This document shows, one piece after another, positions 47,325 to 52,595 of a DNA stretch of 64,000 nt. The position numbers and the translations under genes are program-made. Within the stretch, counting starts at the first letter, position 1; every line of letters starts with the position of its first letter. The notes beneath the pieces were generated by a model. It saw nothing but the letters and a program-made list of their open reading frames with translations. It made no database searches and had not been told where the DNA came from. Location: assembly GCA_019745975.1 (NCBI GenBank), contig JAIESQ010000035.1, positions 1 to 64,000 on the forward strand, written 5' to 3'. The DNA is from Pirellulales bacterium (GTDB lineage Bacteria; Planctomycetota; Planctomycetia; Pirellulales; JAEUIK01).

Positions 47325-48374
47325 ATGCTCCGCCACCTGGTATCTCGATTCCGCCCCGAGTTGGCTATCGACTTGGGGACCGCTAACACGCTGATCAGCG
47401 TGGTCGGCGAGGGGCTCGTCTTGAATGAGCCCTCGGTCGTCGCGGTCGAGCAAGGGACGCGCAACATTCTCTCCGGCGGATGCGCTGTCGGTCACCTGGC
47501 GCGGCAGATGTTGGGGCGCACGCCGAGCTCGATCTCGGTGGTGCGTCCGCTGTCGGCGGGCGTGATCACCGACTTTCAGTTGTGCGAGGCGATGCTGCGT
47601 TACTTCTTTCGCAAGGCGCAGCGGCAGACCGGCTTCGCGCGGCCGCGCGCGCTGGTGGCCGTGCCTGGCTGCATCACGCCGGTCGAGAAGCGGGCCCTCT
47701 TGGCAAGCACGCAGCGGGCCGGCGCCGGGCAGGTGTTCTTGATTCCCGAGGCCAAGGCCGCGGCACTGGGCGTGGGGCTGCCGATCGCCGAGCCGATGGC
47801 CAGCATGATCTGCGATATCGGCGGCGGCACCACCGAGCTGGCGGTGATCAGCATGTCGGACGTGGTCGCGAGCCGGTCGATTCGCGTCGGCGGCGACACG
47901 TTCGACACGGCAATCGCCGACAGCTTGCGCCGCCGCTACAGCCTGCGCATCGGGCCGTCTGCCGCCGAAGAACTGCGGATCGAAATCGGCAGCGCCTGGC
48001 CCTTGGATCACGAACTGGCGGCCGAGGTGCGCGGCGTTGACACCGTGACCGGGCTGCCGCGCAAGAGCACCGTGACCAGCGAGGAGGTTCGCGAGGCTCT
48101 GGCCGATCCGCTGGAAGCGATCGTAGAAGCGATGCACGCGGTGCTCGACGAATGTCCGCCCGAGCTGGCGGCAGACCTGGTCGACAATGGGCTGGTGCTG
48201 GCCGGCGGCGGGGCCCTGCTGCGCGGGTTCGATCGCTATTTCACCGAACGGCTGGGCGTGCCGACGCGGGTATCGCCCAACGCGTTGGAAGCGGTCGCGC
48301 GCGGCACGCTCAAGTGCCTGGAAGAGCTGTCGCTGTGGCGCGGCAATCTGGAATCGAGCGATGACGACGTATAG
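47325..48374 (+). CDS. mreB: Rod shape-determining protein MreB
   Basis: ELAIDLGTANTLI, SVVRPLSAGVITDF, VAVPGCITPVEKRA, CDIGGGTTELAVIS, DNGLVLAGGGALLRGF. Confidence 0.95.
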   Translation: MLRHLVSRFRPELAIDLGTANTLISVVGEGLVLNEPSVVAVEQGTRNILSGGCAVGHLARQMLGRTPSSISVVRPLSAGVITDFQLCEAMLRYFFRKAQRQTGFARPRALVAVPGCITPVEKRALLASTQRAGAGQVFLIPEAKAAALGVGLPIAEPMASMICDIGGGTTELAVISMSDVVASRSIRVGGDTFDTAIADSLRRRYSLRIGPSAAEELRIEIGSAWPLDHELAAEVRGVDTVTGLPRKSTVTSEEVREALADPLEAIVEAMHAVLDECPPELAADLVDNGLVLAGGGALLRGFDRYFTERLGVPTRVSPNALEAVARGTLKCLEELSLWRGNLESSDDDV

Positions 48375-49446
48375 CGAGCGCCGCAGAGCGAGCCGGGTCG
48401 GGCTGTTGTTGTGGCCGCTGTGCGCCGCGGCATTGTTGTTGCTACCGGATCGCGCGACCAGTGCCGCGCGCTGGGCCTGGCAACGCGCGATCGAGCCGGC
48501 GCGGAGTGCTGTATCGCGGGCTTGTGATCAAAGCGTTGACTACGCTCGTGCCTGGGGGGCCACGTGGGGCGATGCGCGCGAAGTCGCCGATTTGCGGCTC
48601 GAGGTGGAGCGGCTGCAAGCTGAGCTGGCCGAACTTGAAACGGGCCACCGCGTGGCGCTCGCGGCGACGAGTTTTGGCAGTCAGGGAAATACACCCGCCG
48701 ATCCAAAGGCCGCACTGCTGGACAAGCCAGCAGTGGCACCCGCTGACGTGGCGAATTCTGTGGCCGGGGTCATTGACCCCGGAAGTCTCGGCTCAACTCC
48801 GGCCTCCGTGAGGCCGGCTACAGGCTCTGCTGACGCGCTCTTGCGAGCGGCTGCCGTCGAAGCTCGCGTGCTCGGTCCGCTGGCTCAAGCGTGGCTCGTC
48901 GAGCGCCGGCAAATCGATCGCGGGCGCCGCGAAGGCGTACAGGACGGCGCGCTGGTGCTGACGCCAACACGGACGCTGTTGGATCGCGGCCGCGATGCTG
49001 CCCTGACGATCGATCATGTCGTGCTGGCGGGCGGTCGCGTGTGGGGGCGCTTGGCGCAGATCAACGAATGGACCAGCGAAGTGCGCCGCGTGACCGACGA
49101 AGGTTATCGCGACCTGGTGGAACTTCGCGCGTCGGGTGGCAAGCGCGCCTCGGTTGTCGCCCCGCGCGGAATTCTTGAAGGCCACGGCGGTACGCTCTGC
49201 CGCGTGCGGCTCATCGCGGCCGACGAGCCGGTGGCGGTCGGCGACGTGGTCGTTTCAGCATCGGCTCAAGGCTACTGTGACGGCCCGCTAGTCTACGGTG
49301 AGGTGGAGCGAGCCGAATGCCCGGCAGGAGCCAACCACTGGGACGTATGGGTGCGGCCAGCATTCGATCCACAAAAGGTGCCCGATCGCGTGGCCGTGCT
49401 GCGCGTCGAGTTCAATCCGGCGCGGGTGGCGATCCGCGAGAACTAA
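48361..49446 (+). CDS. mreC: Cell shape-determining protein MreC, with in-frame repeat-derived linker
   Basis: ATG overlaps mreB end by 14 nt; N-terminal TM, coiled coil, C-terminal beta domain; syntenic between mreB and mreD. Confidence 0.8.
   Translation: MTTYSERRRASRVGLLLWPLCAAALLLLPDRATSAARWAWQRAIEPARSAVSRACDQSVDYARAWGATWGDAREVADLRLEVERLQAELAELETGHRVALAATSFGSQGNTPADPKAALLDKPAVAPADVANSVAGVIDPGSLGSTPASVRPATGSADALLRAAAVEARVLGPLAQAWLVERRQIDRGRREGVQDGALVLTPTRTLLDRGRDAALTIDHVVLAGGRVWGRLAQINEWTSEVRRVTDEGYRDLVELRASGGKRASVVAPRGILEGHGGTLCRVRLIAADEPVAVGDVVVSASAQGYCDGPLVYGEVERAECPAGANHWDVWVRPAFDPQKVPDRVAVLRVEFNPARVAIREN
48713..48823. repeat. Family A (48713-48741) and family B (48758-48823) palindromes inside mreC
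   Basis: 48713-48741 is the exact reverse complement (29/29) of 33562-33590; 48758-48823 is homologous in inverse orientation to 36896-36949. Confidence 0.9.
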
Positions 49447-49548: not shown

Positions 49549-50079
49549 ATGCGAATTATCGGTTTAGCAATTTTGCTGGCGGTTGCAGCACTGGTCGACG
49601 GCACCGTAACCGCGCGCGTGGCGATCGGCGCGGTAGTGCCCGATGGTTTTCTCGCGGCGCTCTTCGTTTGGCTCGTGTTGAACCGTGGAACGTGGGTCGT
49701 TGTCGGCGCGAGTGCTCTGGGTCTAGCGTGCGACCTGTCGGCCGGCAGTCGCTTGGGAATAGTGACGCTTGTGTATTCGCTGGCCGGCGCGGCTTGCGCC
49801 TGGTTCGACGACGAGCGGCCTGCGAGCCGACTGAGTCGACGGGCAGTAGTGACCGGGTTATCGGTGGCGACGCCCGTCGCGCTAGCGATCATTCTGGTAC
49901 TCACGGGTAATGCGAACGCCGCTTGGGCTCGTTCGTGCCTGCAGGGGGCGATCGTCGGCGGCTATAGCGTGGCGTGCGCGCTGCCGATCGTGTTGGCCTG
50001 GCGTTGGTGTGGCGAGTTGTGGGGCAGCGCGCACGTGACGGACGAGTTTGGCGGCAACCGTCGAGCGACGATGTTTTGA
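49549..50079 (+). CDS. mreD: Rod shape-determining protein MreD
   Basis: Multi-TM 176-aa protein directly downstream of mreC. Confidence 0.75.
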   Translation: MRIIGLAILLAVAALVDGTVTARVAIGAVVPDGFLAALFVWLVLNRGTWVVVGASALGLACDLSAGSRLGIVTLVYSLAGAACAWFDDERPASRLSRRAVVTGLSVATPVALAIILVLTGNANAAWARSCLQGAIVGGYSVACALPIVLAWRWCGELWGSAHVTDEFGGNRRATMF

Positions 50080-50217: not shown

Positions 50218-50341
50218 GCCGCGCAGCGGCGACGGCGCTTAGCCGTGGGCGCCAGCCCACGGGAACCTGGCTTGATTGTTATTACTCGCTTGGTGTCCGT
50301 GGGTTAACACCCACGGCTAAGCGCTGCGGCCGCTGCGCGGC
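50218..50341. repeat. Family F BIME-like inverted pair between mreD and PBP2 gene
   Basis: GCCGCGCAGCGGC/GCCGCTGCGCGGC (13/13) and CGCTTAGCCGTGGG/CCCACGGCTAAGCG (14/14) enclosing two further hairpins. Confidence 0.9.
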
Positions 50342-50369: not shown

Positions 50370-52595
50370 ATGCCGCGACCCGACCGACATTTCGACTGGC
50401 ATCGCGTGCTGCCCGACGTCGCGGACGATGGCGCCGTTATCGATCCCCGCGCGCGGCTCAGTCTGTGGCCCGTGGCGGTCGGGCTCATGTTGTTGCTGGT
50501 GTGGGCGCGCATGGCGTGGCTCGAGCGACGGGATGGCACGGCCTATCGCGAGTTGGCGACCCGGCCGATCGAGCGAGTGGAGGTGCTACTTGCGCCGCGC
50601 GGCCGCATTCTGACGCGCGACGGTACCGTATTGGCCCAGGATGAACATCGGCTGGCGCTAGCTGTCTCCTACCGTTGGTTGGAAGAACCTCCCAATGAAG
50701 GCTGGCTGCGACTCCAGGCTCGCTCGCGACTGGGGCTCGCCGAACGACGTGATGCCGGCCGGGTGGCACGCGAAATAGCGCGATTGCGCGACGAGCGTGC
50801 CGCACTGCATGCGTCGCTGGCAGCACTTTGCGGGCTGTCGGCCCAACAATGGCGCGCCGCCACGTGGCGCGTGCAATCGCGCGTCGCGGCAATTCACGGC
50901 GAGGTGAACGCCGCGCGAAGACGCGCGTATGAGATCAATGCGGCGGCCTCGGTATCGCCAAACACTAAGCCGAGGTCTGCGCAACCGGCTTCGCTGGCAC
51001 AGCACATTCGGCGCTTGCTTTTTCCTCCCGATGATCGCCGTCCGCCGGCCGAGATCGCGGTGGCCGAAGAACTAGAGCATCATGTCGTTTTCGAAGGTCT
51101 GACGCTCGAAGCGGCCGCGGCCATCGAGTCGCGCTCGGCTGCCTACCCCGGCGCGCGGGTCGTGCAACTGCCGCATCGCCGCTACCCGCAAGGATCGCTG
51201 GCAGCCAACTTGATCGGGCACTTGGGCGTTGCCTCGGCAGGATCGTCCACCGCCGAGATCAACTCGGCGTCGGCGCCGCGCGGCGGCGTGATGGGCATCG
51301 AACGGCAGCTCGAATCGCGGCTGCGCGGCCGCGCGGGCGCGGACGTCGAAGTCGTCGATCGCTCCGGCCACAGGCTGGCCAGCTTTCGACGCGCCGAGCC
51401 CGTGCGCGGTCGCGATGTCATGCTGTCGATCAATGCCTCACTCCAGGCTAGCTGCGAGCAATTGATCGAGCGCGCGCTGGCACGGCGGACGACAACCGCC
51501 GGCCTCAAGGCGACGCGAGGGGGCGGGGCGATCGTCGTGCTCGAAGCACGCAGCGGCGCGATCTTGGCCGCGGCCTCGGTCCCGACGTTTTCGCCCGAGG
51601 GCTTCACGCACGGAGTGCGCGCGTCGATCGAGCAAGTGCTGGCTGATCCCGGTCGACCACTCGTGGACCGCACCTGTCGGATGGCACTGCCGCCGGGTGG
51701 CATCTTCAAAGTGATGTCGACCCTGGCTTTGCTGGATTCAGGCAAGGTCCAATCCCACACGGTGCTGGCTTGCCAGGGTTACTGGCGACAACCCAACGAG
51801 CTGCGCTGCGCGGTCTATCGCCGACACGGACGCGGTCATGGCGAAGTCGATCTAACCCAGGCGCTGGCCTGTGGGTGCAACGTCTATTTCTTTGAGCATG
51901 CGGCGCGAGTGGGCGCTGGGCCGCTGGTTGATTGGACCGAGCGCTTTGGCTTCGGTCAGCCGAGCGGAGTGGACTTGCCTGATGAATCGGCCGGCCACGT
52001 TCCTGATGCTGGCGAAGCAACGCCTGTCGACTCGGACCGATCCCGGACAACGGCGCAACTTCTGGCGATCGGGCAGGGAGCGCTGACGGCCACGCCGCTG
52101 CAAGTGGCGCGGGCGATGGCCGCGATCGCCAACGGCGGACAGCTTGTAACGCCCTACGTCGTCAGTACGTTAGGAGTAGCCGAAGCGCCCTTGGGCGATC
52201 GAGAAGCCGGCGAGCCGATTCGTGTGGACTTCGACAGCGAGTTCCCAGAACTGATTGCGCGCGCGCCACGCGCAATCGAGGGGCTCGATCAGCTCCACCT
52301 GCAAACGTTGCGCGAGGCATTGCAATACGCGGTCGACGATCCGGATGGTGCGGCGAACGCCGTGCTCGCGGGGTCGACAACATCGATCGCTGGTTTGTCG
52401 GGGACGGCACAAGCTGGCTCAGGGCTAGGCGACCACGCCTGGTTTGCCGGCTACGCGCCGGCCGAGGCGCCGCGCATTGTCGTCGTCGTGGCACTGGAGC
52501 ACGCCGGCGAGGGAACCGTCGCGGCGGCGCCGGTGGCGCGGCTAGTCTTCGAGCGGCTGGTCGAACTCGGCTTTCTCAAAGCCGACGCGACCTAG
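50370..52595 (+). CDS. mrdA: Penicillin-binding protein 2-like, transpeptidase motifs degenerate
   Basis: N-terminal TM; dimerisation-domain NLIGHLG, GVMGIERQLE, RGRDVMLSINASLQ; transpeptidase fold GGAIVVLEARSGAILAAASVPTF; LPPGGIFKVM, GCNVYFFEHAARVG, AGLSGTAQ...HAWFAGYAP. Confidence 0.9.
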   Translation: MPRPDRHFDWHRVLPDVADDGAVIDPRARLSLWPVAVGLMLLLVWARMAWLERRDGTAYRELATRPIERVEVLLAPRGRILTRDGTVLAQDEHRLALAVSYRWLEEPPNEGWLRLQARSRLGLAERRDAGRVAREIARLRDERAALHASLAALCGLSAQQWRAATWRVQSRVAAIHGEVNAARRRAYEINAAASVSPNTKPRSAQPASLAQHIRRLLFPPDDRRPPAEIAVAEELEHHVVFEGLTLEAAAAIESRSAAYPGARVVQLPHRRYPQGSLAANLIGHLGVASAGSSTAEINSASAPRGGVMGIERQLESRLRGRAGADVEVVDRSGHRLASFRRAEPVRGRDVMLSINASLQASCEQLIERALARRTTTAGLKATRGGGAIVVLEARSGAILAAASVPTFSPEGFTHGVRASIEQVLADPGRPLVDRTCRMALPPGGIFKVMSTLALLDSGKVQSHTVLACQGYWRQPNELRCAVYRRHGRGHGEVDLTQALACGCNVYFFEHAARVGAGPLVDWTERFGFGQPSGVDLPDESAGHVPDAGEATPVDSDRSRTTAQLLAIGQGALTATPLQVARAMAAIANGGQLVTPYVVSTLGVAEAPLGDREAGEPIRVDFDSEFPELIARAPRAIEGLDQLHLQTLREALQYAVDDPDGAANAVLAGSTTSIAGLSGTAQAGSGLGDHAWFAGYAPAEAPRIVVVVALEHAGEGTVAAAPVARLVFERLVELGFLKADAT

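Follow-up and report, generated by a model that had tools for sequence, protein, structure and literature searches.

The two roles of PBP2, the cross-linking of peptidoglycan (PG) and the activation of RodA, have to our knowledge been separated so far only by engineered mutants and by beta-lactams. A search of the open-access literature for natural pseudo-PBPs yielded no case. Changes in the pedestal of PBP2 activate RodA (PMC6207328), and PBP2 activates the polymerisation performed by RodA via interface I in an assay in which cross-linking is inhibited (PMC10257715). The S309A form of PBP 2B from B. subtilis supports division without catalysis, and inactive PBP 2B requires a second, active transpeptidase (PMC5656894). 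In Planctopirus limnophila, both pbp2 and rodA are dispensable (PMC10632474).

The locus described here belongs to a Pirellulales bacterium with a draft genome of 204 contigs (99.94% complete, 1.1% contamination) and is carried by a 127-kb contig, of which the first 64,000 nucleotides make up the stretch that was analysed, referred to as the window. Downstream of mreB, mreC and mreD, and on the same strand, this contig harbours a gene for a PBP2 in which the residues required of an active D,D-transpeptidase, i.e., the Ser of SxxK, the Ser of SxN and the Lys of KTG, are all three replaced.

The PBP2 gene and its catalytic motifs

The open reading frame begins with an ATG, is devoid of internal stop codons over its 741 codons and displays a normal coding GC pattern. 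All of the elements of the class B PBP architecture, namely the N-terminal membrane helix, the PBP_dimer pedestal and the transpeptidase fold, are present according to PF03717, PF00905, the AlphaFold2 (AF2) model and Foldseek (Table 1). The best NCBIfam match of the protein is TIGR03423 pbp2_mrdA (E=7e-113), with a score of 378 bits that lies under the curated cut-off of 455; intact orthologues from the order also fall short of it (402 and 386 bits). The AF2 model (pLDDT 84.8, pTM 0.81) shows the expected transpeptidase elements in place, and its top fold match in the PDB is 6pl5_B, the PBP2 of the RodA-PBP2 complex of T. thermophilus. Judged from its sequence, the protein is a class B PBP of the PBP2/MrdA type and an orthologue of the elongasome PBP2. 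The 290-base gap that separates its gene from mreD holds a 50-nt inverted repeat (50218-50341), 82% complementary with a 24-nt spacer, the core of which occurs a single time within the window.

Table 1. Position of the mre genes, the PBP2 gene, and the domains and motif sites of PBP2 in the window.
Feature	Positions	Strand	Evidence and remarks
mreB	47325..48374	+	PF06723 E=5e-122
mreC	48361..49446	+	PF04085 E=1e-12; start inferred from the ORF sequence, ORF listed from 48187
mreD	49549..50079	+	PF04093 E=2.6e-6
Class B PBP of the PBP2/MrdA type (741 aa), catalytic motifs dead	50370..52595	+	ORF, PF00905, PF03717, TIGR03423, AF2, Foldseek
N-terminal membrane helix, residues 26-64	50445..50561	+	AF2 secondary structure
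Pedestal / PBP dimerisation domain, residues 75-336	50592..51377	+	PF03717 E=9e-21
Transpeptidase domain, residues 386-725, fold kept	51525..52544	+	PF00905 E=7e-53
SxxK site, GIFK: Ser to Gly444, Lys447 kept	51699..51710	+	Alignments; Gly444 codon GGC, 51699-51701
SxN site, GCN: Ser to Gly502, Asn504 kept	51873..51881	+	Orthologue alignment; Gly502 codon GGG, 51873-51875
KTG site, LSG: Lys676 to Leu, Thr677 to Ser, Gly678 kept	52395..52403	+	Orthologue alignment; codons TTG TCG GGG

The segment PPGGIFK aligns on the PPGS.vK of solved PBP2s in the HMMER alignments, and the three sites align without any gap with the S(444)VFK(447), S(502)CN(504) and K(676)TG(678) of the orthologues. A sequence-only reading of this locus had already pointed to a recognisable fold within an otherwise intact 741-aa frame, and to the replacement of Ser by Gly in both SxxK and SxN. 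The domain matches, the model and its PDB counterpart bear out the fold, the lack of stop codons bears out the frame, and the two replacements are found as Gly444, in the alignments to solved PBP2s and to orthologues, and as Gly502, in the orthologue alignment. The same reading had considered all three motifs as lost, which is accurate for the two Ser and for the KTG Lys but too broad for the other motif residues, with Lys447, Asn504 and Gly678 still in place. Within KTG, the change that counts is that of Lys676 to Leu; the change of Thr677 to Ser is rated conservative because KSG is a normal variant in some class A beta-lactamases. Without its nucleophilic Ser and two other catalytic residues, this PBP2 is expected to escape acylation, be it by D-Ala-D-Ala stems or by beta-lactams.

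Orthologues and sequence constraint across the order

Among 347 genomes of the same order, an orthologue of PBP2 was identified in 42 (about 12%), the other 305 being devoid of it; a pattern scan of the contigs of other genomes made use of motif-bearing patterns, which are ill suited to dead copies. A SEDS protein of the RodA/FtsW type accompanies PBP2 in 42/42 of the positive genomes and occurs in the absence of PBP2 in three others, one of these with a match under the cut-off, so that 302/347 genomes have no SEDS. In the 33 genomes checked for MreB, a full-strength match tracks PBP2 and SEDS nearly exactly, and the tested genomes negative for both PBP2 and SEDS have, with one exception, no such match. 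Across the sampled order, PBP2 and the SEDS polymerase, and true MreB where checked, are kept or lost together.

For the catalytic motifs, 43 loci that represent the 42 genomes were inspected, some of these loci being partial. All readable motifs are intact except in three copies, which belong to the present genome (G000), to G294, a member of the same family that reads STFE, DCN and KAG, and to G302, in which all three motifs are gone from a frame still 698 aa long and the AF2 model is weaker (pLDDT 76.9). Since nearly all orthologues are intact, dead motifs are, at the level of sequence, not a general trait of planctomycete elongasomes, and the sequence-only reading, which placed its pseudo-transpeptidase in a planctomycete elongasome, is to be corrected in this respect. 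The SxxK losses of this genome and of G294 look separate because the Ser was lost here and the Lys in G294. Only this difference argues against a shared origin of the dead motifs; the tree leaves the sisterhood of both copies unsettled, and their constraint as a clade is not rejected (p-AU 0.4).

The constraint exerted on the rest of the protein was estimated from conserved columns, defined by a conservation of at least 90% in 35 intact full-length orthologues, with the nine motif columns kept in 35/35. The present copy keeps 35/35 conserved columns in residues 1-345 (the pedestal half), 74/77 non-motif conserved columns of the transpeptidase domain and 5/9 motif columns, to be compared with average fractions of 0.94, 0.945 and 1.00, respectively, for the intact orthologues in a leave-one-out comparison. 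Changes thus affect 4/9 motif columns versus 3/112 other conserved columns (109/112 kept; Fisher p=0.0005), when a gene-wide drift at the rate of the motifs would predict about 28 non-motif changes. The corresponding figures are 35/35, 68/77 and 6/9 for G294, and 31/35, 42/63 and 1/5 for G302. For the three degenerate copies pooled, 101/105 conserved columns are kept in the pedestal half versus 184/217 non-motif columns in the transpeptidase domain (Fisher p=0.002); the case having been picked for its odd motifs, both p-values describe a contrast and are not discovery statistics. The terminal-branch rate ratio of the transpeptidase domain to the N-domain (0.91, versus 0.81 for the sum over the order) gives no clear signal either way. 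A whole-gene pseudogene is ruled out by the open frame, the coding GC pattern and this conservation. The pattern fits a PBP2 that may be retained for the sake of RodA, which would require a class B PBP as a partner.

Proposed partnership with RodA and competing explanations

The PBP2 under study is the only PF00905 match of the genome. Profile searches of the genome found neither a class A PBP glycosyltransferase (Transgly, PF00912) nor VanW (PF04294), and S11 (PF00768) gave no match over the cut-off and a 39-residue match under it, such family profiles being prone to miss very divergent enzymes. A single RodA-type SEDS protein, encoded on contig C158, keeps its catalytic Asp (HSDFIF), as do the SEDS proteins of G294 and G302. 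With one PF00905 protein only and no Transgly domain, the searches leave RodA as the sole PG polymerase of known type in this genome. The genes murE, murF, mraY and murG lie together on contig C161 with open frames. MraY (L102:9250-10467) possesses an Asn at the third catalytic Asp (FMGD motif), which we take to be the Asp267 of E. coli. This Asn is possibly a sign of general erosion; it is shared with three relatives that have an intact PBP2 (G309, G320 and G331), and other lineages of the order keep the Asp. The only YkuD L,D-transpeptidase of the genome (L032) retains its His and Cys (HGS...ERGCIR). In many genomes of the order, some of them with an intact PBP2, the YkuD Cys is replaced by Thr, Ser, Trp or Tyr, e.g., at loci L087-L100 in G294, G302, G304, G317, G222, G412, G404, G210 and G114.

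On balance, and by a modest preponderance of the evidence, PBP2 has probably been retained as a pseudo-transpeptidase that continues to act with RodA, with cross-linking either absent or left to YkuD. This reading is based on the loss of the motifs, the conservation of the remainder, the intact predicted fold and the presence of a RodA-type gene along with PBP2 across the order. Having kept the membrane helix, the pedestal and the fold of the transpeptidase, PBP2 would persist as a non-catalytic partner of MreC and of the single RodA-type polymerase. It would hold or switch the latter in such a way that lipid II is still polymerised into glycan strands. Cross-linking would then be absent at the RodA-PBP2 step or would depend on the single YkuD enzyme. 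We infer in this manner the binding and activation of RodA by PBP2, the identity of the cross-linker and the adaptive character of the retention. Of the scaffolding pseudo-transpeptidase proposed by the sequence-only reading, the pseudo-transpeptidase part is supported, whereas scaffolding would be a plausible role. The other enzyme that this reading suggested for cross-linking would narrow to YkuD, the only candidate found, with its Cys kept, and the suggested search for L,D-transpeptidases or other PBPs brought to light no second PBP. This last result weighs against a retained partner, as the inactive PBP 2B of B. subtilis needs a second active transpeptidase. Selection on the PBP2-RodA pair may moreover be weak, given the dispensability observed in P. 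limnophila. A more far-reaching version would make a naturally dead PBP2 the required activator of RodA in the polymerisation of PG by the elongasome, and would leave an L,D-transpeptidase as the sole cross-linker of the wall; in relatives that have lost the YkuD Cys as well, such as G294, there would be hardly any cross-linking. This version is rather doubtful.

An early stage in the loss of the elongasome offers a real alternative, given that PBP2 and RodA have disappeared from most genomes of the order, together with true MreB in those checked for it; it deserves serious, if tentative, consideration. According to this explanation, PBP2, RodA, true MreB and the synthesis of lipid II are being shed across the order, cross-linking has become dispensable in this lineage, the catalytic site has drifted first and the gene is a vestige that still awaits its loss. 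The joint absences of PBP2 and SEDS in the sampled genomes agree with it, as do the reported loss, by Pirellulales, Isosphaerales and Gemmatales, of the majority of their lipid II genes (PMC12283558) and the dispensability of PG genes in P. limnophila (PMC10632474, PMC6952346). In this respect, G302 would represent a later stage, with a decayed PBP2, a YkuD whose Cys is changed to Ser and, between murE and mraY, fragments only of murF (L110:10640-11600), rodA being still present; this genome fits better with a loss of the pathway than with a retained partner. Against an early stage of loss in the present genome stand a PBP2 conserved outside its motifs like the intact orthologues, up to a complete pedestal half, and murE, murF, mraY, murG and rodA that are all open. 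The two explanations are compatible, since retention as a partner may itself precede loss.

A selected loss of the beta-lactam target, by which a RodA partner beyond acylation would also be beyond inhibition, would account for substitutions that remove specifically the acylation site and spare the rest; it is nevertheless improbable, the intact relatives of the same family having kept the target. Still less credit can be given to an enzyme active through another nucleophile or a non-standard mechanism. Lys447, Asn504 and Gly678 do remain and a Cys503 occurs within the SxN motif, but this Cys is the usual residue of the intact orthologues and hence no replacement, the Ser position is occupied by Gly and the KTG Lys by Leu; the alignment, the check by which the earlier reading might have been overturned, reveals no alternative Ser/Lys pair in the pocket. 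A sequencing, assembly or binning artefact, conceivable in a draft genome, is hardly credible at all since the substitutions affect three separate sites within an open 741-codon frame with a normal coding GC pattern, on a long contig in a nearly complete genome of low contamination, and other degenerate copies exist elsewhere in the order.

Significance and comparison with known systems

If the retained pseudo-transpeptidase reading is true, cross-linking and RodA activation would be found uncoupled in nature at this locus, and the prediction for the chemistry of the wall would be a lack of 4-3 cross-links. The locus also points to a possible order for the loss of PG synthesis in planctomycetes, this genome and G294 being devoid of the transpeptidase motifs with the polymerase and the lipid II genes remaining.

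The closest described proteins are the PBP2/MrdA (TIGR03423) of E. coli, H. pylori and T. thermophilus (6PL5), which share with the present protein the domain order, the fold, the mreBCD neighbourhood and the best family match, but not the replacement of the SxxK Ser, the SxN Ser and the KTG Lys. B. subtilis PBP 2B S309A (PMC5656894) is likewise a class B PBP that lacks the nucleophilic Ser and yet continues to serve in its complex; however, it is an engineered protein of the divisome and relies on PBP 3 for cross-linking, whereas the present PBP2 is natural, belongs to the elongasome and has no second PBP found beside it. The PG-intermediate bacteria (PMC8406291) similarly lack class A PBPs, so that polymerisation would rest on the SEDS/class B PBP pair alone; they retain one or more class B PBPs presumed active, in contrast to the only one found here, which is dead. 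Finally, the reduced PG pathway of Pirellulales, Isosphaerales and Gemmatales (PMC12283558) reflects the same trend of PG gene loss at the order level, but this genome keeps murE, murF, mraY, murG, rodA and mreBCD, and it is the catalytic site of the transpeptidase that is missing.
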